Part shown: positions 2,792 through 12,154 of the stretch, in pieces | Position numbering within the stretch: position 1 is the first letter of the stretch | How the letters are laid out: the number at the start of each line of letters is the position of its first letter | From: a virus | Virus record (IMG/VR): IMGVR_UViG_3300035451_000008 | Location: 2,860-28,349 of that record | DNA: 25,490 bases | Reading direction: 5' to 3' (one strand) | The notes under the pieces: generated by a model | Told to the model about the DNA's origin: nothing | The model's database searches: none | The model's input: only the letters and a program-made list of their open reading frames with translations | Position numbers and translations under genes: made by a program

Positions 2792-3362
2792 GGCAAGGCA
2801 GCTTGCGATCCGTTTGGCCAAGCTTCCTGCCCAGTACTTGGACGGGAAGCTGACCACCAAGAAGCTGGCGGTGGAGCTTCGAGCGATCGCGGATTGGATC
2901 GATCCGGAAGGGGAATTCCGTCCGGTCGAAAAGCAGCCCAGCACAACCCCGGAAGAGCGCGAAGTCTTCGCCTACTGGCAACGGGCTGTGGGCAAGCCGG
3001 AGGCAAAGTTCACAGCCGATCGGCGGGCGAAGATCCGGGCTAGGTTGCGCGAAGGGTACTCGGTAGACGACATCAAAAAAGCGATCCGCAACGTGGCAGA
3101 GAGTACCTACCACCGGGGCGAGAACGCCAACGGGCACGAATACTGCGACCTGACCCTGATCTGCAGGAACGGCTCAAAGCTGGAGGGCTACCGGGACATT
3201 GCCGGCGGCATCGAGCCAGCGCCCAAGGTGCTGGAGTCTGGTACAGAGGGACGAATACAACAACTACAGCGGGATGCGGCGGCGCTTCTCGCGGAAGGAA
3301 AGATCGATGCCTACAATCAGACCCAGTCCGAGATCCGAAGGCTTCGTTCCGCTCGGGGGTAG
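2760..3362 (+). CDS. Replication-associated protein with conserved phage C-terminal domain
   Basis: 200 aa from ATG 2760, which overlaps the end of the SSB-like gene by 32 bases. The in-frame ATG at 2619 would overlap far more and read an Arg-rich shadow. From about residue 67 the segment PEEREVFAYWQ, then RRAKIRARLREGYSVDDIKKAI, then a HRGENANG..YCDLTLICRNG block matches a domain common at the C-terminus of phage replication-initiation or helicase-loader-like proteins. I assign it by remembered pattern, not by search. There is no ATP-binding motif. It could load a helicase or bind the origin. Confidence 0.6.
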   Translation: MTTHSTPGISKARQLAIRLAKLPAQYLDGKLTTKKLAVELRAIADWIDPEGEFRPVEKQPSTTPEEREVFAYWQRAVGKPEAKFTADRRAKIRARLREGYSVDDIKKAIRNVAESTYHRGENANGHEYCDLTLICRNGSKLEGYRDIAGGIEPAPKVLESGTEGRIQQLQRDAAALLAEGKIDAYNQTQSEIRRLRSARG

Positions 3363-5356: not shown

Positions 5357-5458
5357 ATGGCTTACGATTGTCGATGGTGCGGGGATACGGGAATCGAACC
5401 GAGTACGATGGCGTGCCATCGGTGCCGGTACGTGACTCCGGAAGGTGGTGCCACATGA
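5357..5458 (+). CDS. Zinc-ribbon mini-protein, 33 aa
   Basis: A 33-residue frame from ATG 5357 to a TGA that overlaps the next ATG. Two CxxC knuckles are plain, C-R-W-C at residues 5-8 and C-H-R-C at 20-23, separated by 11 residues, which is enough for one zinc site. Four well-placed Cys in 33 residues and tight packing between stop and start codons support a real gene despite its size. It may act as an adaptor binding protein or nucleic acid. It is one of several Cys-pair mini-proteins in this phage. Confidence 0.6.
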   Translation: MAYDCRWCGDTGIEPSTMACHRCRYVTPEGGAT

Positions 5459-6111
5459 GTAGCCCCGGACACGAGTGGACGCCGCACGAGCGCGATGGTT
5501 GGTCCGTCTGTTCGCGTTGCGGCATGGTGCGCAACTACGACCGCGAGACCACGACATGCAGCGGCGCGCTGCCGAAGATCCGGCAGCGCAGCGAGATCGA
5601 GGACTGCGGCCAGGATGGCGTGTGCAAGCTTTCTCCGGGCTGCAACCGGCACTGGGAGGAGCGGAACCGCGAGCTGGTGCGCGAGAACGAGACTCTCCGC
5701 TCGAACAGCGACCATCTCAGTTCGGAGAACGCCTCGCTGGCCCGGCAGGTTGAGTCGATGGCGATGCGCATCGAGAGTCTCGCTGAGGAACTGGCCAAGC
5801 CCGAGGATGTGAGGCTGCGCGAAGTGGTTGACGCGCTCGACGGGCGCGCGGTCATCTTCGACGGACTTGGGGAGCGCGTGGGGCATTTGCTCGACGAGAT
5901 GGACGAGTGGATCGCGCGGGCCGGCGCAGCCGAGAGGCGCCTCAAGAAGGCTGAAGAAGTGGTGATGCTGGCCCGCCAGTTGACGGCGTACTCTTGGGAA
6001 GACCGTCTGGAAGACTGCGAGGTCAGTGACAACGCAAAGCAGGATTCGCGCGAGTTGAGTATCGCCGTCTGGCTCTACGACCAAGAGTCAAAGACTGGGG
6101 ACAAATCATGA
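5455..6111 (+). CDS. Zinc-ribbon and coiled-coil protein, 218 aa
   Basis: Start ATG 5455 overlaps the previous stop (ATGA); the in-frame codon at 5350 would read through the 33-aa gene above. The N-terminus has GHEW (His6), CSRC (Cys19, Cys22) and Cys35, a pattern seen in phage zinc-ribbon proteins, plus three more Cys at 51, 57 and 63. Residues 65-120 form a clear coiled coil (REN..L..N..HL..EN..L..QVE). The rest is acidic and helical. Function is unknown; a DNA- or protein-binding scaffold is plausible. Confidence 0.7.
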   Translation: MSSPGHEWTPHERDGWSVCSRCGMVRNYDRETTTCSGALPKIRQRSEIEDCGQDGVCKLSPGCNRHWEERNRELVRENETLRSNSDHLSSENASLARQVESMAMRIESLAEELAKPEDVRLREVVDALDGRAVIFDGLGERVGHLLDEMDEWIARAGAAERRLKKAEEVVMLARQLTAYSWEDRLEDCEVSDNAKQDSRELSIAVWLYDQESKTGDKS

Positions 6112-6115
6112 GTTC

Positions 6116-6214
6116 GTGCAGAGCGACGAATGCGAAGGATGCCAAGATCCGGACGAAGCTGTTCGGGGCGTACTTCAGGCCCTGGAAACCATGAAAAGGA
6201 AACGCGGAGAATGA
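6116..6214 (+). CDS. Possible zinc-knuckle mini-protein, 32 aa
   Basis: From GTG 6116 a 32-residue frame reads QSDECEGCQDPDEAVRGVLQ and ends KRKRGE, with one CxxC pair and an amphipathic helix. It ends with TGA overlapping the next ATG, the same stop-start arrangement as its neighbours. No good ribosome-binding site precedes the GTG, so it would depend on re-initiation after the upstream gene. A 28-aa alternative frame from ATG 6108 looks less protein-like. Low confidence. Confidence 0.4.
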   Translation: MQSDECEGCQDPDEAVRGVLQALETMKRKRGE

Positions 6215-6816
6215 CTCAGATGTTGATTGCGGCGGTGCTGACTGCCTACGTAGTGACCCTAGCTCCGATCCGATACTCGGGCCCAGCGCCAGAGACGGCA
6301 GAGCGGCGGCAGGAGCGGCTGGCGATGGTGGCCGAAGTGGTTTCCGAAGTGGCGTCCGAGGGCACCACACAGTGGCGTCCAGACGACGTGGCCGCCCTGG
6401 TGCTCGCCACGTGGGTGGATGAATCCGCGCTGGAATACTGGGTGCATGCTGGTGGGGTGTCGCCGCTAGGCAACCAGGATGGTGGGCGCGCGCGGTGCCT
6501 AGGCCAGATCCAAACGTGGCCCGGCAATACGCTGTTGTCGCCGGACGAACACCGGGCGCTAGTGGGTGTGGACCGTGCGGCAACGAAGCGGTGCGCGCAA
6601 GCCACGGTGGAGTACTATTGGGCCCACCGGCGCTGCTTACGGTCGAGGCAGCCAGCTGCCACGCGGTGGAAATCGGCGCTGAAGCCAGGGGAACTGGCGT
6701 TGTTGGCGGCCGCTTACGGCAAGGGGTGGTGTGCTCCGGTCGGCAGGAGTGCGTCCACGCTGGCGCTGCGGGCGACCAGGATCCGGGAGCGGATATGGCA
6801 CGCCCAGAGTCAGTGA
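6211..6816 (+). CDS. Secreted lysozyme-fold / transglycosylase-like protein
   Basis: 201 aa from ATG 6211, with GCGGAGA just upstream. Residues 4-20 are a hydrophobic signal peptide or anchor. The centre resembles a soluble lytic transglycosylase domain: ATWVDESALEYW carries the likely catalytic Glu71, then GGRARCLGQIQ matches the conserved G-x-GQI strand, and AAYGKGWC occupies the later A-x-Y-N-G position. Such enzymes cleave peptidoglycan. The gene sits among small accessory genes well away from the virion genes, so it may act from inside the producing cell, in lysis or envelope remodelling. It could also be inactive. Confidence 0.6.
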   Translation: MTQMLIAAVLTAYVVTLAPIRYSGPAPETAERRQERLAMVAEVVSEVASEGTTQWRPDDVAALVLATWVDESALEYWVHAGGVSPLGNQDGGRARCLGQIQTWPGNTLLSPDEHRALVGVDRAATKRCAQATVEYYWAHRRCLRSRQPAATRWKSALKPGELALLAAAYGKGWCAPVGRSASTLALRATRIRERIWHAQSQ

Positions 6817-7406
6817 CGCGAGCGCTCGAAGTGAGTCAGCCATGGGCGAGCACCCTATTGGCTGGCAAGCTCGAAGTGGTCAACCTGTGGCTGCCACCCA
6901 AGCCCGAGCTCGTGGGCACGCGGATCGTGATCGTGGCCACCGAAGTGGACAGCTGGGACCTGTGGATGCTGCCGAGTCTCCACAAGGTGAAGCTAGCGAC
7001 CCCAAAGAACCACGTCTGGTCGCACGGAGTGCTCGGGACGTGCCTCTTGGCGGGCTGGGTGCGGACCGAGCTCGGAAAGGGCGTCGTGGGCCAGTACAGG
7101 CCCGGGAACACGACCCAATTCAGGAAGCTCAAGGGCCTAACTGGTCCAGTGGGTTGGGTGCTGAGGCAACCGGAAACCACTAGAGTGCCGAACCTCGAAG
7201 GGTTGCTTCGGATTCGAGCTGGGTACTGGGATCAAGCCGAGGTCCAGAAGTACCTGGTGTGGTACGCTGAGACCTACGGCACGAAGGACTTGAGTCCAGA
7301 ATATCTGGCGCGGCTTGAAGTGTTCAGGCCAAAGTGGAAGGGAAAGTTGGAAGGCTATGACGGAAACGCAAAACCAGCGGGCAGTGCGGGTAGCAATCCC
7401 GGTTGA
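6795..7406 (+). CDS. ASCH-domain protein, 203 aa
   Basis: ATG 6795 follows GGGAGCGG and overlaps the previous gene by 22 bases. Residues 10-50 match the ASCH pattern: RALEVSQPWASTLLAGKLE, an Asn in VVNLW, then a strand GTRIVIVAT. ASCH domains resemble PUA and bind RNA or modified nucleosides; some remove acyl groups from cytidine. The C-terminal 80 residues contain several aromatic residues (VQKYLVWYAETYG) and have no known match. The domain call is good; the ligand is unknown. Confidence 0.65.
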   Translation: MARPESVTRALEVSQPWASTLLAGKLEVVNLWLPPKPELVGTRIVIVATEVDSWDLWMLPSLHKVKLATPKNHVWSHGVLGTCLLAGWVRTELGKGVVGQYRPGNTTQFRKLKGLTGPVGWVLRQPETTRVPNLEGLLRIRAGYWDQAEVQKYLVWYAETYGTKDLSPEYLARLEVFRPKWKGKLEGYDGNAKPAGSAGSNPG

Positions 7407-7716
7407 AGGTGTGTGGTTTGATCGCGAATCGAACGATCGCGAGTCGAAGCGGGTCTATTGGGTCAACGGTCAGGTCGCGGTACAGGCGATGGTGATCGAG
7501 GCGCCGACCCGTCCTGGGCTGTGGCTCACGGCGGTCGCGTGGGTGAACCCAGAAGACCCGAGCAAGACCCACGCTCACGAGTTCGGCCCCTTCGAGCGCC
7601 GGGCGACGGCAGAGCAGGCTCTGGACGCGATTGGGATTGGCATCCAGGTGGTGCGCCCGGCGAAGCATATCAGTGAGATTCCGGGGGCGGAAAAACTCGA
7701 ACCAGCGAAAGACTGA
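7357..7716 (+). CDS. Hypothetical protein, 119 aa
   Basis: ATG 7357 follows GGAAGG and overlaps the ASCH gene by 50 bases. The N-terminal half reads as beta strands (VRVAIPVEGVWF, RVYWVNGQVAVQAMVIEA); the second half contains an AEQALDAIGIGIQVV helix. There is no Cys or known motif. The small mixed fold could bind a ligand or a protein, but no family is recognised. Confidence 0.65.
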   Translation: MTETQNQRAVRVAIPVEGVWFDRESNDRESKRVYWVNGQVAVQAMVIEAPTRPGLWLTAVAWVNPEDPSKTHAHEFGPFERRATAEQALDAIGIGIQVVRPAKHISEIPGAEKLEPAKD

Positions 7717-7723
7717 AGGACTC

Positions 7724-8194
7724 ATGACAGACAGGGACAAGTTGAACGGCGCAGCCCCAACGGATTCGGGAGTGGAGATCTACGTGCTCACCGACGAACA
7801 GCATGTGAGGGCTCTCCTGATGGGGGCTGCTGCACTGGGCATCGTCCCATCGGGGATGGTGTCGCGTGTGTCTCGGGCTAGGTTCGAGCAGGTCTCGAAT
7901 GGCGCCACGCTGCAGCTCTGGACGCGCCCAGCGGCCTCGCCTCCACCGGACACGACTGTGCTTCGAGACGCCCTGGTGCGTCTACTCGGTGAGTCGGTTC
8001 CAGCGATGGCTGAGATCGCAACCTGGTCACGGGAACAGATCGAAGAAGTGGCCGAATGGGCTGTCCTCGCCAAGAGGTCACTGGACGCCAACGAATCATT
8101 CCCGGTCCCACCCACGTTCTTGGCGAGACCAGGAGAGCCCAAGCCCAAGCGGAAGCGGCGCACCCAAAGCGATCCACCGGGGGAGCCGAACTGA
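7724..8194 (+). CDS. Hypothetical protein, 156 aa, basic tail
   Basis: ATG 7724 is preceded by GAAGGA at the right distance. A strand-helix-strand N-terminus (EIYVLTDEQHVRALLMGAAA) is followed by a helical middle (RDALVRLLGESVPAMAEIAT) and a Pro/Lys/Arg tail (PKPKRKRRTQ) that may touch nucleic acid. Function is unknown. It lies directly before an HNH-like gene, with 2 nt between them. Confidence 0.65.
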   Translation: MTDRDKLNGAAPTDSGVEIYVLTDEQHVRALLMGAAALGIVPSGMVSRVSRARFEQVSNGATLQLWTRPAASPPPDTTVLRDALVRLLGESVPAMAEIATWSREQIEEVAEWAVLAKRSLDANESFPVPPTFLARPGEPKPKRKRRTQSDPPGEPN

Positions 8195-8196
8195 CC

Positions 8197-8487
8197 GTGG
8201 CCAGTCCGGACCGGGACCCCGACTACCTACGATGGGTGGCGAGTAGGCCATGCTTGTTCTGCCAGGGGCCCGCTGGACACGCTCACCATGACGGCAAGTT
8301 CAAAGGCGGCGGCACAAGCATCAAGTGCTCCGACTACCACACGGTCCCGCTCTGCCCGAAGCACCACGCCGAGTACCATCAACGTGGCCAGATCGGATTC
8401 TGGAACCCGGAAACCACCAAGCGCAAGTTCTCCCGAGCGATCGAATTGCTCCAGAAACAGTACCAGCTCCAGACAACGGGTCAGTAA
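8197..8487 (+). CDS. HNH-like zinc endonuclease, 96 aa
   Basis: GTG 8197 lies about 11 nt after GGGGAG. Motifs read in order: CLFC (Cys19, Cys22), AHH (His30, His31), Cys44 in KCSDYHTVPLC, and CPKHH with His56, His57 and His61. This is the arrangement of short phage HNH / DUF968-like proteins, where Cys pairs hold zinc and His residues form the nuclease centre. Likely roles are nicking during recombination or assisting packaging. The next gene's ATG overlaps its stop by one base. Confidence 0.65.
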   Translation: MASPDRDPDYLRWVASRPCLFCQGPAGHAHHDGKFKGGGTSIKCSDYHTVPLCPKHHAEYHQRGQIGFWNPETTKRKFSRAIELLQKQYQLQTTGQ

Positions 8488-8987
8488 TGCCCAAGCACCA
8501 GAAACGCTTCAAATCAGAGAAACAGCGGGTTTTGGCCCGATACATGGCGATCCGCCTACTCTCCCAACTCGTGGACGACTGGGAGGTGATCGAGGCCCTA
8601 GAGCGGCAGTTCAACGTCTCGGATACGGTGGCCAAGACCCTGGTGCGCGAGGCCTGGGCCGAGATCGTGTCCGCGGACGATGGACTCGACCTGAGGCGTC
8701 GCAAGGGCATCATGTTCATGGCCGCCCGGGAACACTTCCGGCGGTGCAACGAGAAGGGCGACTTGGCCCAGGCCACGGCGAGCCTGCGACTCATCGCCAG
8801 GATCTGGGGACTCGACAAGCCCCAGGAAGAACGCGATCAGTTGCCCAGCGAGCAGACCAAGGACGAGTTCAGTGGACGTTCCGCGTCGGAGCTCCGGTAC
8901 TATGAACAGCACGGTTGCTGGCCCGCGGACGCGTTGCCCCCACCGAAGGGGAACAAGCCCCAAGATCCACTCGCTGGACTACACTGA
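8487..8987 (+). CDS. Helix-turn-helix protein, candidate small terminase subunit
   Basis: 166 aa from ATG 8487, translated by stop-start overlap with the HNH-like gene. Residues 20-60 contain a helix-turn-helix-like segment (DDWEVIEALERQFNVSDTVA). The middle (MFMAAREHFRRCNEKGDLAQ, then LRLIARIWGLD) resembles the oligomerisation region of small terminase-like phage proteins. The C-terminus is Pro rich. The HNH gene just before it would fit a packaging role, but the large terminase is about 4.7 kb downstream, so a transcription or replication factor is also possible. Confidence 0.5.
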   Translation: MPKHQKRFKSEKQRVLARYMAIRLLSQLVDDWEVIEALERQFNVSDTVAKTLVREAWAEIVSADDGLDLRRRKGIMFMAAREHFRRCNEKGDLAQATASLRLIARIWGLDKPQEERDQLPSEQTKDEFSGRSASELRYYEQHGCWPADALPPPKGNKPQDPLAGLH

Positions 8988-9030
8988 TTCAGGTACACCG
9001 GAGAAGGCGCGCTGGTGTTGAGTTTCTGGG

Positions 9031-9060
9031 CCCATTCGTGGGTTGTCCAGACTGAAAGGG
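9031..9060 (+). promoter_or_regulatory. Short hairpin plus GAAAGGG ribosome-binding site
   Basis: CCCA-TTCG-TGGG at 9031-9042 is a short hairpin with a TTCG loop, followed by GAAAGGG at 9054-9060 and GTG at 9067. The stem is only 4 bp and the spacing is longer than in the other cassettes, so this is a weak member of the hairpin plus ribosome-binding series. Confidence 0.35.
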
Positions 9061-9066
9061 AAAGCA

Positions 9067-9399
9067 GTGGACGAACAGGGAAAGATCCAGAGTTGGACGG
9101 ACAGCAAGGGCAACGTTTTTTCTGCCTCAGAATTCGAGGCAGCGAAGCGGGAGCATGGGACCTACGCGCTGGTCTGCTTGCGCTGCCGGACCTCGCACTT
9201 CTTCCAGGGTCCGCCGTTGCACCCGAGATGCACTGAGTGCGGCGGGGCTCTCCTGACTGAGGCGCAGGTGATCGAGGCAGTGCGCGAGCATGATGGGGCG
9301 GCACGGGCGCTGCAGCGGGTGCAGGGGTTGGCCCTAGCGGACGGTCTGAATCGCCACGAAAGACGCAAGGCGAAGGCCCTAGCACGGAGGAAGCGATGA
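9067..9399 (+). CDS. Zinc-ribbon protein, 110 aa
   Basis: GTG 9067 is placed 6 nt after GAAAGGG; the TTG at 9043 in the same frame has no such site. The core holds CLRC and CTEC pairs about 18 residues apart, a classic zinc ribbon. A helix (VIEAVREHDGAARALQRVQG) follows, and the end is strongly basic (RHERRKAKALARRKR), suggesting nucleic-acid binding. No specific family recognised. It begins a run of four tightly coupled small genes. Confidence 0.65.
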   Translation: MDEQGKIQSWTDSKGNVFSASEFEAAKREHGTYALVCLRCRTSHFFQGPPLHPRCTECGGALLTEAQVIEAVREHDGAARALQRVQGLALADGLNRHERRKAKALARRKR

Positions 9400-9764
9400 A
9401 GGACGAGCTGGAGCCAGAGCTGGACCGCAACAACGTGCCGATTCTGCGGGGTGTGCGTGCAAAGATTGCCGACCTGGATCGGCGTCGCGTGTACCTCGAA
9501 GAGAAGCTGGCGAGCCGAACGGGAAGCCGGTCTTCACTAGAGTTCGCGAAGCGTGAGGTGGAGGCGATTGTGGCAGCTCAGATCGCCTTGACCTTCCACA
9601 TGAATACCGTGCAACGGCTGGATGAGCCCGTGGGGCTATTGCGCGAGTTCGTGGCGGCCTACGAGGGACCGATAGCCGAAGAGGGCCGGTTGCGGGCCGT
9701 TGTGGCGCGTGGGAAGACCTTGCTGGAAGAGTTCGACGCACTCATGCAAGGACAGAGACGATGA
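9396..9764 (+). CDS. Hypothetical helical protein, 122 aa
   Basis: The ATG overlaps the upstream stop by 4 bases, with AGGA just before it. The protein is almost wholly helical, with heptad-like stretches (AKIADLDRRRVYLEEKLAS, REVEAIVAAQIALTF). It has no Cys and no catalytic motif. It may be a structural or adaptor protein; no family is recognised. Confidence 0.65.
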   Translation: MKDELEPELDRNNVPILRGVRAKIADLDRRRVYLEEKLASRTGSRSSLEFAKREVEAIVAAQIALTFHMNTVQRLDEPVGLLREFVAAYEGPIAEEGRLRAVVARGKTLLEEFDALMQGQRR

Positions 9765-9925
9765 AAAAGCGAACAGTGGTGATCGTGTTTGGAGCTGACC
9801 AACGGCTATGGCAACCGGAGCCAGACCCAACTCGCTTGAGCGAAACCAGCAAGCGGCGGCGGCGAACAGCAGTGGTTGAACTGACGAAAACCCAGCAACT
9901 GGTAACCAAAGGGGCAGTGCAATGA
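9761..9925 (+). CDS. Hypothetical basic mini-protein, 54 aa
   Basis: A 54-residue frame from ATG 9761 to TGA 9923-9925, joined to both neighbours by 4-base ATGA overlaps. The N-terminus is a strand (KKRTVVIVFGADQRLW); the middle is basic (KRRRRTAVVEL). The exact fit between two coupled genes is the main support. Function unknown. Confidence 0.55.
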   Translation: MKKRTVVIVFGADQRLWQPEPDPTRLSETSKRRRRTAVVELTKTQQLVTKGAVQ

Positions 9926-10116
9926 GCCATGGCGTGAGAACGAACAAGCACCACGAGATCGTGGCAACGATCCAGTGGGGTTCGGGCATGGCGAAGCCCG
10001 AGGGCGTGGAGTTGATCGCGCCCGAAGACTACGCCAGAGTGTGCGTGGAGATGACCCGGCTAGGAAAACCCCGGTGGAAACGGGACCCCAAGACTGGTGT
10101 CGTGACCAAGGTGTAA
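9922..10116 (+). CDS. Hypothetical protein, 64 aa
   Basis: The ATG overlaps the previous stop, with AAAGGGG about 8 nt upstream. The product is a small, slightly basic strand-rich protein (HEIVATIQWGSG, ELIAPEDYARVCVEM) ending in KRDPKTGVVTKV. No family is recognised. The gene closes the coupled run before the MazG group. Confidence 0.6.
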   Translation: MSHGVRTNKHHEIVATIQWGSGMAKPEGVELIAPEDYARVCVEMTRLGKPRWKRDPKTGVVTKV

Positions 10117-10152
10117 ACTGAGCCAAAGAGGCGTTGGGCCTCGAACGAAAGG
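10114..10152 (+). promoter_or_regulatory. TAAACT box, hairpin and GAAAGG cassette before the MazG-like gene
   Basis: TAAACT at 10114-10119 overlaps the end of the previous gene and could be a -10 element; no good -35 is seen at 16-18 bases. GAGGC (10128-10132) and GCCTC (10138-10142) pair around GTTGG. ACGAAAGG follows, with ATG at 10159. A start near 10126 would place the hairpin at the 5' end of the transcript. Confidence 0.5.
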
Positions 10153-10158
10153 AAAGCA

Positions 10159-10683
10159 ATGATGATTGATCTAAGGGTGCGAGCTGTTGGGCTCGCGGTG
10201 CGGGCGATTCGGACGTTCGGCGAGGAGCCCCAGTGGCGCCAGTTGCAGGAGGAGTGCGGCGAACTGGTGGCAGCCGTGAACCATTCGATGCGGCGCAACG
10301 ACAAGTCCGAGCTGATCGGTGAACTGGCGGATGTGCTGTTCATGCTGTTGCAGGCGCTGATTCTGGTGCCCCCAGAGCTGGTGTTCGCGCGGTTGGAGCA
10401 AAAGCTAGAGCGGTTCGAGAAGGTGCTGCATGGGCGTCCGGAACTGAATGAGAGTCTGCTGTATCTGCGGCGTGCCAAGCTGGCGTTGGAGTGGTTCGGC
10501 GCCCCGAAGGAACCAGACGAAGGAGACACGCTGGACGCCAACGCGGAACATGCCGAGCTGCTGCAGGCCGTGGGGGAGCTCGAAGACTGGCTGGTGCGCT
10601 ACGGGGACACGCCCAACGATCGGAGTCCAGCGGGTGTGGTTCGCGCGGCGGTGGCAGAGCTCACGAAGGCGAGGGCCCGATGA
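10159..10683 (+). CDS. MazG-like nucleotide pyrophosphohydrolase
   Basis: 174 aa. The motif EECGE (residues 31-35) followed by ELIGELADVLFML (Glu55, Asp58) is the EExxE...ExxD metal-binding signature of all-alpha NTP pyrophosphohydrolases. They hydrolyse NTPs or dNTPs to monophosphates plus pyrophosphate. Phage copies may clean the nucleotide pool or lower (p)ppGpp. The C-terminal 75 residues are an extra helical extension with no known match. ATG 10162, directly after 10159, is an alternative start. It heads its own hairpin-led group and overlaps the next gene by 4 bases. Confidence 0.75.
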   Translation: MMIDLRVRAVGLAVRAIRTFGEEPQWRQLQEECGELVAAVNHSMRRNDKSELIGELADVLFMLLQALILVPPELVFARLEQKLERFEKVLHGRPELNESLLYLRRAKLALEWFGAPKEPDEGDTLDANAEHAELLQAVGELEDWLVRYGDTPNDRSPAGVVRAAVAELTKARAR

Positions 10684-11006
10684 CCAGTCCTTGCGTCAAC
10701 GTCGCATTGGGTGCTTCGGATTGGGATGTGATCCAAGGTGCCGCGGCGCGGTTTGGATTCGAAGTCCCTTCGGGTCGAGGTCCTGTCGTTGCGGTGCCGT
10801 TACACCAGCTGGCGGCGTTGTTGGCTTGCGCGGACGCCGTTAATCCGGAACTGTGGCGGAGGATCCGGGACTCAGTGGGGCATCGTGCCCATGAGCTGTA
10901 CATGCAACACGCGGCCAAAGCATTGGACGAAGACAGTGACAGGGGATGGCTGCAGACGATGAGTGAGCTCGAAGATTGCCTTGGCCCGCTGCTGGATGTA
11001 CCATGA
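10680..11006 (+). CDS. Hypothetical protein, 108 aa
   Basis: ATG 10680 overlaps the MazG stop by 4 bases, with GGCGAGGG upstream. The N-terminal half is strand-rich (CVNVALGASDWDVIQGAAAR), then comes a helical, His-containing half (RDSVGHRAHELYMQHAAKAL). No known motif. Likely co-translated with the MazG-like enzyme. Confidence 0.65.
   Translation: MTSPCVNVALGASDWDVIQGAAARFGFEVPSGRGPVVAVPLHQLAALLACADAVNPELWRRIRDSVGHRAHELYMQHAAKALDEDSDRGWLQTMSELEDCLGPLLDVP
10976..11004 (+). promoter_or_regulatory. Promoter TTGCCT-17-TACCAT
   Basis: TTGCCT (10976-10981) and TACCAT (10999-11004) are exactly 17 bases apart, inside the end of the upstream gene. The predicted start near 11011 gives a leader of about 60 nt to ATG 11070 that includes the hairpin at 11033. 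Confidence 0.5.
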
Positions 11007-11032
11007 CGGCATGCACACAACTGGTTGACCCA

Positions 11033-11062
11033 GCGCGCAACCGCGCGGGCGGGAACGAAAGG
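11033..11062 (+). promoter_or_regulatory. Hairpin plus GAAAGG ribosome-binding cassette
   Basis: GCGCG (11033-11037) and CGCGC (11042-11046) pair around CAAC. AACGAAAGG ends at 11062 and ATG is at 11070. The gap between hairpin and GAAAGG is 10 nt, longer than in the other copies. Confidence 0.5.
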
Positions 11063-11069
11063 CAAGACC

Positions 11070-11258
11070 ATGAGCGAGATCAGAACTGGAGTGTACCGGT
11101 GCCCAACGAAGCCGGACGTGGTGGTGGTTCAGCAGATCGAGGAGTTCGTGCTGTACCGGGATTACCAGACCCAGAAAACCGGTCTGGTAGGACCGCTGCT
11201 GGCGTATCTGGAGCGCAACGGATACCGGTGGGAGCCCCGCGGCAACCATTGGAACTGA
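11070..11258 (+). CDS. Hypothetical protein, 62 aa
   Basis: ATG 11070 is 7 nt after GAAAGG. The protein reads as strands (VYRCPTKPDVVVVQQ, EFVLYRDYQ) and a helix (VGPLLAYLERNGY). It has a single Cys. No family is recognised. It leads a unit with three further mini-genes. Confidence 0.6.
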   Translation: MSEIRTGVYRCPTKPDVVVVQQIEEFVLYRDYQTQKTGLVGPLLAYLERNGYRWEPRGNHWN

Positions 11259-11260
11259 CG

Positions 11261-11449
11261 GTGTGCCAGCAATGCGACCAATTGGTGGCGGTCTCGCCGA
11301 AGGCCGGCTGGTGCTGGCCTTGCTACAACCAGCACGTCTTCCGGCGCTACCGGCTCATGATTCGAGGGCTGGCCGCCATGGTGTTCGTGTTGGGGTGTGT
11401 AGCGGTTGGGTTGGCGCTGGCGCTGTTCGTGCGAATGGTGAGATCGTGA
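11261..11449 (+). CDS. Zinc-ribbon membrane mini-protein, 62 aa
   Basis: GTG 11261 starts two bases after the previous stop. The N-terminus holds CQQC (residues 2-5) and CWPC (residues 18-21), forming one zinc site. Residues 36-57 (LAAMVFVLGCVAVGLALALF) form one clear transmembrane segment ending in Arg. The likely layout is a zinc knuckle on one side of the host membrane with a single-pass anchor. Possible roles include a membrane tether, superinfection exclusion or lysis control, none proven. The ribosome-binding site is weak, so coupling is likely. Confidence 0.6.
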   Translation: MCQQCDQLVAVSPKAGWCWPCYNQHVFRRYRLMIRGLAAMVFVLGCVAVGLALALFVRMVRS

Positions 11450-11562
11450 AGTGCGTGATCTGTTCTGGTTGGTTCTTCTTCTTCGAGCTGCCCAATCCGG
11501 CGGTTGCTTGCTGCGCCAGGTGTGCCCAGCTGCGCGGTAGAGGTGATTACCGTGGGCGGTAA
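11446..11562 (+). CDS. Zinc-ribbon mini-protein, 38 aa
   Basis: GTG 11446 overlaps the previous stop (GTGA). CVIC at residues 3-6 and a CCARC cluster near residue 25 can form a single zinc knuckle around an aromatic stretch (GWFFFFELP). It ends with TAA inside the start of the next gene. The size is small, but the Cys spacing and the packing support it. Confidence 0.5.
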   Translation: MKCVICSGWFFFFELPNPAVACCARCAQLRGRGDYRGR

Positions 11563-11806
11563 GATTCGCATGCTTGGCCGTACCGTGCGCAGCGAGAGGC
11601 AGGTTGGGGGACTGGACGTCCAATTGGTGGAGAGCGCAGCTGGGTTCCGCGTTTTCCTGGGTCGACTTGAGGGTGCCTCATGGGTGGAGCGCGTGACGGC
11701 GGGGACGAGGTCTGGGGAATTGCTGGCGCTGGCGGACGAGCTGCGGCGTTTGGCCGATCAGATTGATCGGCTCAGCCCTTGCGGACCGCGCCCGCGAAGC
11801 GGATAG
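11552..11806 (+). CDS. Hypothetical protein, 84 aa
   Basis: GTG 11552, with AGAGG 8 nt upstream, starts within the end of the preceding gene; in-frame ATG 11570 is an alternative. Strands (DVQLVESAAGFRVFLGRLE) are followed by a helix (ELLALADELRRLADQIDRLS). There is no Cys in the core. Function unknown. It is the last gene before the large hairpin at 11822. Confidence 0.6.
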   Translation: MGGKIRMLGRTVRSERQVGGLDVQLVESAAGFRVFLGRLEGASWVERVTAGTRSGELLALADELRRLADQIDRLSPCGPRPRSG

Positions 11807-11821
11807 TGACCAAGCAGATTC

Positions 11822-11882
11822 TGCGCGCCAGGCCCTCCTTCCCCCACGAACCTCGAACCTCCCCCGGGGGGCCTGGTGCGCA
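11822..11882 (+). terminator. Large GC-rich hairpin, candidate terminator
   Basis: The 17-base arms at 11822-11838 and 11866-11882 pair along their whole length, with two G-U pairs as RNA, around a 27-base C-rich loop. It lies between gene 11552-11806 and the next hairpin-led gene. No T-run follows, so it would be a terminator without a U-tail, or a processing or regulatory structure. Confidence 0.5.
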
Positions 11883-11893
11883 CCTAGTTACTC

Positions 11894-11917
11894 GGGGCAA
11901 AAGGCCCCAACGAAAGG
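11894..11917 (+). promoter_or_regulatory. Hairpin plus GAAAGG ribosome-binding cassette
   Basis: GGGGC (11894-11898) and GCCCC (11904-11908) pair around AAAAG, followed by AACGAAAGG (to 11917) and ATG at 11927. The stem and flanks nearly match the copy at 12359. Confidence 0.6.
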
Positions 11918-11926
11918 AAAAGAAGA

Positions 11927-12154
11927 ATGCCGACGATGAAAGCAAGCGAACTAGATCCTGGCGAGTGCAAGGGGTGCGGTGCCCTGATTTACTGGGTCAA
12001 GATGGCTGACACGGGGAAAGCGATGCCAGTGGACCGTGGTGCCGACCTGCGCGTGCTTCCGGGGCCCGATGGAGCTCGGGTGGTGAAGTGTTACATCTCG
12101 CACTTCCGATCGTGTTCGGCTGCGGCTCACTTCCGAAAGGTGGAAAGCCGGTGA
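11927..12154 (+). CDS. Zinc-finger protein, 75 aa, phage-type
   Basis: ATG 11927 is 9 nt after GAAAGG; ATG 11936 is an alternative. The order MKASELDPGECKGCG, IYWVKMADTGKAMPVD, then C-Y-I-S-H and Cys-containing SHFRSCSAAAHFR is a pattern I associate with a small zinc-binding protein found in many phages. Ligands would be the CxxC pair plus the later Cys/His residues. The role is unknown; protein or nucleic-acid binding is likely. Confidence 0.65.
   Translation: MPTMKASELDPGECKGCGALIYWVKMADTGKAMPVDRGADLRVLPGPDGARVVKCYISHFRSCSAAAHFRKVESR

Follow-up and report, generated by a model that had tools for sequence, protein, structure and literature searches.

The DNA described here is a stretch of 25,490 nucleotides (hereafter the window) covering positions 2,860 to 28,349 of the IMG/VR virus record IMGVR_UViG_3300035451_000008. 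The 36.8-kb record belongs to a tailed phage, as judged from PHROGs matches to terminase, portal, and other genes of that kind, and a megablast search of GenBank phages with the window returned no match. Among the records used for comparison, which carry labels of the form L002, L002/L014 and L003 (99.75%) are further contigs of the same phage, and its next relative is L004 (terminase 73%). Our subject is the gene at 5455 to 6111, whose product joins a zinc-ribbon-like N-terminus to a long coiled coil, together with the short conserved sequence that closes it (Table 1). Both fall within a block that aligns by blastn with small multi-gene cassettes in other phages: window positions 5439 to 5543 align with L019, 5444 to 5603 with L027, 5456 to 6087 with L016 (87%), 5680 to 6087 with L004 and L017 (84 to 85%), and 6095 to 6137 with L004. 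The carriers of these cassettes are viral contigs except for L037, a contig of a Hydrogenedentota metagenome-assembled genome (MAG), which is taken as a phage contig binned with that MAG. Hydrogenedentota as a regular host was rejected, as the right end of the cassette was present in 1 of 68 genomes of the phylum, namely the already known MAG.

Relatives of the gene at 5455 were found in 10 distinct other records, 9 of them viral besides the phage's own copy and 1 a MAG contig. Identity at the DNA level ranges from 73% (L024) to 91% (the N-terminus of L022) and is mostly 81 to 87%; between the window and L004, it is 85% in this gene and 74% in the terminase gene. At the sequence level the coding evidence is strong, with a ratio of nonsynonymous to synonymous substitution rates (dN/dS) of 0.04 to 0.16 in the coiled-coil core and 0.10 to 0.14 in the N-terminus of the window's type (type A), values that signify strong constraint. 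The type-A N-terminus, a CxxC with four further Cys residues, is conserved in L016, L037, and L022. Both the N-terminal Cys module and the C-terminus vary among copies on one coiled-coil core, such that L019 carries two N-terminal types in tandem and L022 has the N-terminal module only, joined to another coiled coil. Structurally, an AlphaFold model places strands at residues 8 to 10, 16 to 19, and 25 to 27 and helices at 61 to 113, 117 to 187, and 192 to 217, and the protein is predicted to form a small strand-rich head on long helices. A PADLOC match to LmuB (E 7.5e-4) was attributed to the coiled coil and set aside. No relative of the coiled-coil protein was found in GenBank phages, and a second scan of viral_contigs with a protein alignment added no new record. 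Two loci stand apart from the other copies. In L027, on a reverse-complemented locus (9451 to 9609), the type-A zinc N-terminus occurs as a free 52-aa mini-protein with no coiled coil, upstream of the right end. At 9699 to 10937 of the 160-kb contig L024, a diverged coiled-coil gene has as neighbours a gene that looks like one from the L023 cassette and a further CxxC gene; recognisable cassette ends were not found at this locus, which is perhaps an older or different cassette type.

The block has a sharp right-hand border. The 25 bp immediately past the last stop codon are present in 13 of the 14 viral stretches that match in the proper context, and in L037 as well. Across the right-end set of 14 distinct records including the window, mean identity is 0.95 over the 28 nt that include the stop and 0.28 just beyond (91 pairs), and each of the 13 other records is identical to the window at 25 to 27 of these 28 positions. 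This conservation contrasts with a synonymous divergence (dS) of 0.7 to 0.9 in the adjoining gene when the window is compared with L016, L017, and L004. Five different last genes precede the right end across records. The exact right end occurs once per record in 15 of 19 and is absent from the other 4, while the MAG has a second match with 2 mismatches. The set does not include L031, a chance match in which the sequence context of the others is absent. The left end, found in 7 records, consists of GAAGGGATTCGTTTGAATCCGCGAA followed by a constant first gene, with an identity of 1.00 over 25 nt and 0.27 outside (21 pairs); matches to its pattern in L040 to L044 were discarded as chance, because the sequence that follows in the other records is absent. 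A reading frame coming from upstream, at least about 50 codons long when counted from its possible start, extends into the left end and terminates there (...KGFV stop) in L016, L017, L037, and L039, 4 of the 7 copies; it is short in L023 and L038 and missing from L032. Both ends comprise a predicted hairpin and then GCGAA, and they share an inverted ATTCGTT six bases in, a 7-bp match of a length reached in 44 of 5000 shuffles. The window itself gave no match to the left end at up to 5 mismatches.

Five complete cassettes are available, of 930 to 1749 bp and 3 to 5 genes each. Consecutive genes are joined by RTGA stop/start overlaps (R is A or G) at all 17 junctions listed, where for L023 4371 and L004 91 the GTGA begins 3 nt ahead of the listed coordinate. 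Genes and protein domains have been swapped between copies, with the coiled-coil core and both ends conserved. When the two N-terminal variants of the coiled-coil gene are counted separately, the cassettes have nine gene types, and 6 of the 9 encode a CxxC.

The surroundings of the copies are unlike one another from the boundary outward. Comparison of 91 right and 21 left pairs of flanks revealed no collinear similarity, with only three short blastn matches and one tblastx pair. L016 and L017 share near-identical cassette parts (94 to 97% at the nucleotide level) between unlike flanks. Six contigs (L004, L020, L033, L034, L038, and L039) end inside the cassette, in the manner of repeats in assemblies. 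Finally, L055 and L056, relatives of the L017 phage with a downstream region 93 to 97% identical in nucleotides, have no cassette at the matching place. Unlike flanks, near-identical interiors, broken contigs, and cassette-free relatives together argue that the cassette moves. Directly left of the cassette in L017 lies an extra small gene (1322 to 1570) that is absent in L055 and L056 and may have arrived with the cassette. Farther afield, a distant scan with the whole L037 cassette, one of the five complete ones, matched 47 bp in two records of a single Streptomyces phage among the GenBank phages and nothing in plasmids, and the first cassette gene had no match in phages.

The copies thus have a fixed right end, a fixed left end where complete, unlike surroundings, genes chained by RTGA, and swapped genes and domains. 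We consider it probable, on balance, that 5455 to 6111 plus the end at 6109 to 6136 represents the right-hand part of a mobile phage gene cassette, with the following mode of movement and cargo role. The cassette would insert between phage genes, be transcribed from the phage operon, and have its genes translated through stop-start coupling. Its right end, which offers RTG and GTG in two frames, would let ribosomes continue to the phage gene that follows. An enzyme acting in trans would recognise the hairpin ends and move the cassette, and homologous recombination would reshuffle resident copies; recombination in trans at the hairpin ends is probably how movement occurs. The cargo would be zinc-plus-coiled-coil adaptors directed at functions of the host, with restriction or other defences as possible targets, and countering host functions is the likeliest role for the cassette proteins. 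Phage genomes are mosaic, yet the units of exchange and the machinery are rarely visible. Here, comparison of different phages resolves both ends of the unit to nearly single-nucleotide precision, which opens to testing the question of what moves small accessory genes. Should the cargo prove to be counter-defence, the cassettes would provide a ready list of candidate inhibitors, overlooked by annotation on account of their tiny genes.

A number of results weigh against a mobile cassette of this kind. An exact empty site was not found, as similarity between L017 and L055/L056 ends at L017 1269 and resumes at 3316/3342. Some of the carriers are not wholly unrelated, since the window phage has a relative in L004, and a diverged AAA/SSB-like module is common to the upstream regions of L037, L019, and L022. 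An orientation count by the longest open reading frame (ORF) shows no clear bias, cassette and right flank being co-directional in 9 of 14. The left end is absent from the window, L019, L021, L027, and L036 despite ample upstream sequence, and these five copies do not fit the picture of a simple two-ended transposon. No recombinase was recognised in the 8 cassette gene types scanned (of 9). A phage-borne tyrosine or serine recombinase was rejected as the mover, with no match to PF00589 or PF00239 in the 17 phage records searched, a set that includes many fragments; these records have no Y1 transposase either, and the MAG holding L037 has 5 matches to it. Hairpin folding at the ends is unremarkable when set against shuffled sequences (z about -1). 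With regard to the proteins, the first cassette gene shows few changes and a dN/dS of 0 to 0.57, and the AlphaFold model of the 5455 product has a pLDDT (per-residue confidence) of 70.8 and a low pTM (predicted template modelling score) of 0.28. A small CPFC...C..C-type protein at L023 3878 to 4135, in a sister cassette outside the window, resembles the restriction-alleviation family Lar (PF14354/phrog_599), and this likeness is weak (phrog_599 E 0.0011), with a PF14354 match (E 0.1, 13.3 bits) below the family cut-off of 28.6.

The proposed cargo role also has to be set against the other small Cys-pair proteins of the window. The initial annotation had described the frames starting at 5357, 5455, 6116, 9067, 11261, 11446, and 11927 as a dense set of paired-Cys products and had suggested a family of small adaptors acting on host proteins. 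All seven frames are present. Four of them (5357, 9067, 11261, and 11446) encode two CxxC motifs, and the pairing is single in the other three, where the 5455 product has one CxxC plus five more Cys, that of 11927 combines a single CxxC with a conserved H-x3-C, and 6116 has one CxxC. The density between 5357 and 12154 is indeed above chance, judged by shuffles and by the rest of the window. Genes with a CxxC number 7 of 21 there versus 0 of 17 elsewhere in the window, where one of 18 listed genes was set aside for a wrong frame, and 4 of the 21 have two, compared with means of 1.86 and 0.07 in 10000 within-protein residue shuffles, of which 2 reached seven CxxC genes and 0 reached four with two pairs; these figures flatter the case because the hand-chosen gene lists are partly Cys-selected, 5357 and 11446 being counted because they had been named for their Cys. 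The count also takes in the CxxC at 8197, though that pair is part of the DUF968/HNH nuclease. Synonymous codon usage supports coding for 11261, 11927, and the N-terminus of 5455 and is ambiguous for 5357, 11446, 9067, and the frame at 6108.

The idea of a single family did not survive. The proteins match different Pfam and PHROGs families or none, and a common family for all of them is unsupported by profile and relative searches. Judged by its motifs, the region is one of several unrelated small proteins of zinc-binding type, and that these act as adaptors on host proteins is a guess, for which the one hint is the weak Lar likeness of the L023 protein in a sister cassette. Conservation of the Cys spacing in relatives, also expected from the outset, was seen for 5455 and 11927, the two for which it was shown; it did not hold for 6116, whose frame differs between records past the conserved element, and 5357, 11261, and 11446 were scanned against Pfam and PHROGs only. 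L004 has other Cys-pair ORFs at 2593 to 2958 and 5468 to 5833, between the right end and the terminase, which differ from those of the window; the Cys-pair type is thus retained even as individual genes are replaced. It is possible, with a likelihood a little short of even, that the remaining Cys-pair products of the window are nothing more than ordinary small proteins of a phage replication region, unrelated to one another and with no common theme, and that they cluster only because of where their genes lie. The diversity of families fits such an account, as does the location of phrog_5984-like relatives, which in other phages have genes for recombination or replication as neighbours. The enrichment over shuffles and the rest of the window, and the frequency of CxxC among the cassette gene types, argue against it.

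With respect to movement, the blocks could have spread solely by homologous recombination between phages of overlapping host range, in which case the ends would mark boundaries of module exchange and not a transposable unit. Mosaicism at the level of genes and domains, with breakpoints at or near gene ends, would be expected from this process, and AAA_24 genes, read as Sak4-like, are present in 4 of 18 records searched. The five copies without a left end and the limit of one exact right end per record are in keeping with it as well. However, the carrier flanks have no collinear sequence and the ends are sharp within a few nucleotides, so there would be nothing outside the ends for homology to use at first insertion, and we regard this explanation as unlikely. 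Least probable of all is an explanation through expression, in which selection keeps the right end as a translational signal for termination-reinitiation at the gene that follows, and its sharp border reflects loss of downstream homology. RTGA in all 14 records, an additional GTG in a different frame, and an ORF of at least 150 aa in frame with either start in 5 of 14 (that of L036 running to the contig end) agree with it. On the other hand, two frames of three would often suit a nearby gene by chance, and an equally sharp left end in 7 records and the near-identical parts of L016 and L017 between unlike flanks are left unexplained.

Several known mobile systems invite comparison with the cassette. 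Non-autonomous elements of the insertion sequence IS200/IS605 (HUH) type and REP-type (repetitive extragenic palindromic) palindromes have subterminal hairpins at both ends and are mobilised in trans. The cassette may resemble them in the hairpins predicted at both of its ends, which are no stronger than shuffles; no Y1 transposase was found in the 17 phage records, against 5 matches in the MAG that holds L037. The closest known systems are the mycobacteriophage mobile elements MPME1 and MPME2 and phage-borne integron cassettes, and the cassette departs from both in their tested defining features. MPMEs are not known to encode a recognised transposase, and the cassette is likewise a small element mobile in phages without one. 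MPMEs are very small, at about 440 bp, with a single ORF of 123 residues and an inverted repeat on either side, and their mobility was seen by comparing related phages (PMC3029335, PMC4351075). The cassette, in contrast, has 930 to 1749 bp, 3 to 5 exchangeable genes, and two unlike ends that share only the 7-bp inverted match. Integron gene cassettes and CALINs (clusters of attC sites lacking integron-integrases) are described as tandem genes exchanged between contexts, and are also reported in virulent phages (PMC9892861). Tandem, exchangeable genes are a feature of our cassette too, but here there is one end per array and not one per gene, and no tyrosine integrase in the 17 records. An integron attC was also rejected, as no RYYYAAC/GTTRRRY pair spans the right end in 5 of 5 records (window, L016, L017, L023, and L037) within a span from 120 bp before to 140 bp after it. 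No account of this cassette was found in the literature among the matches listed, a set in which subscription papers are thinly covered. We tentatively raise the possibility that it represents a new kind of phage mobile element: transposase-free, hairpin-ended, multi-gene, and RTGA-joined, which would spread zinc-binding and coiled-coil (possibly counter-defence) proteins among viruses and deliver a start codon to the adjoining gene.

Table 1. Features of the cassette part and of the small Cys-pair genes, in window coordinates.
Feature	Position	Strand	Remarks
218-aa protein, zinc-ribbon-like N-terminus (CSRC + 5 Cys in protein), long helical coiled coil	5455..6111	+	Last cassette gene
Right-hand part of cassette	5439..6137	+	From blastn alignment with cassettes of other phages; no left end found
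ATGA stop/start overlap at right end	6108..6111	+	RTGA in 14/14 records
Right end: stop TGA + GTTCGTGCAGAGCGACGAATGCGAA	6109..6136	+	Predicted bulged hairpin, then GCGAA
33-aa ORF, two CxxC	5357..5458	+	ATGA-coupled to 5455; codon usage ambiguous
32-aa GTG frame	6116..6214	+	Starts within cassette right end; one CxxC
HNH nuclease, DUF968 type	8197..8487	+	PF06147 E 1.3e-11, phrog_96 E 7.7e-13
110-aa zinc-ribbon-like protein, two CxxC, GTG start	9067..9399	+	Zn_ribbon_NUD E 0.016, phrog_4046 E 0.009 (weak)
62-aa protein, two CxxC, one hydrophobic segment	11261..11449	+	
38-aa ORF, two CxxC	11446..11562	+	GTGA-coupled to 11261; codon usage ambiguous
75-aa CxxC...HxxxC protein	11927..12154	+	phrog_5984 E 1.7e-9

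Next to the cassette core, the ORF at 5357 is preceded by a Shine-Dalgarno-like GGAG, its stop overlaps the ATG of 5455 (ATGA), and it may be either a cassette gene or a phage gene. The frame at 6116 was rejected as an independent gene, since its synonymous codon score falls below that of every coding segment of similar length and its reading frame is not kept beyond the conserved element across records. Farther right, the sole relative found for 9067 is a near-identical copy in L003, and 11261 has no significant family in Pfam or PHROGs (DUF7685 E 0.21). The 11927 product is better connected. It keeps the CxxC and HxxxC of phrog_5984, with C14, C17, H59, and C63 invariant in the 3 aligned proteins, and is 43 to 47% identical to its two aligned relatives. 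Using tblastn, relatives were found in 8 GenBank phage records, with Geobacillus-type phages at E 3e-5 to 7e-4 and Gordonia phage Finkle at E 0.07 only, a match that is weak alone. In a Geobacillus phage, the 11927-like gene is flanked by YqaJ and RecT, and in a Gordonia phage it has RusA as a neighbour.

Two minor features of the same region concern other genes. A nucleotide pyrophosphohydrolase of MazG type (10159 to 10683; PF03819 E 1.6e-6) has a 27-bp in-frame deletion in L003 at window 10504 to 10530, which accounts for 27 of the 33 positions that differ between the window and L003. The sequence AACGAAAGG lies a short distance upstream of start codons at window 10144, 11054, 11909, and 12374 and at L004 1394, 2989, and 12588, one of these sites heading gene 11927, and there are none in L005. 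A GC-rich hairpin stands immediately 5' of AACGAAAGG in 7 of 7 exact sites in the window and L004, with a stem sequence that varies between most of them and energies that are not extreme, as 1 to 14% of random 26-mers fold equally well. These sites resemble the start-associated sequences, accompanied by inverted repeats, that are described for Cluster K mycobacteriophages (PMC3203893).

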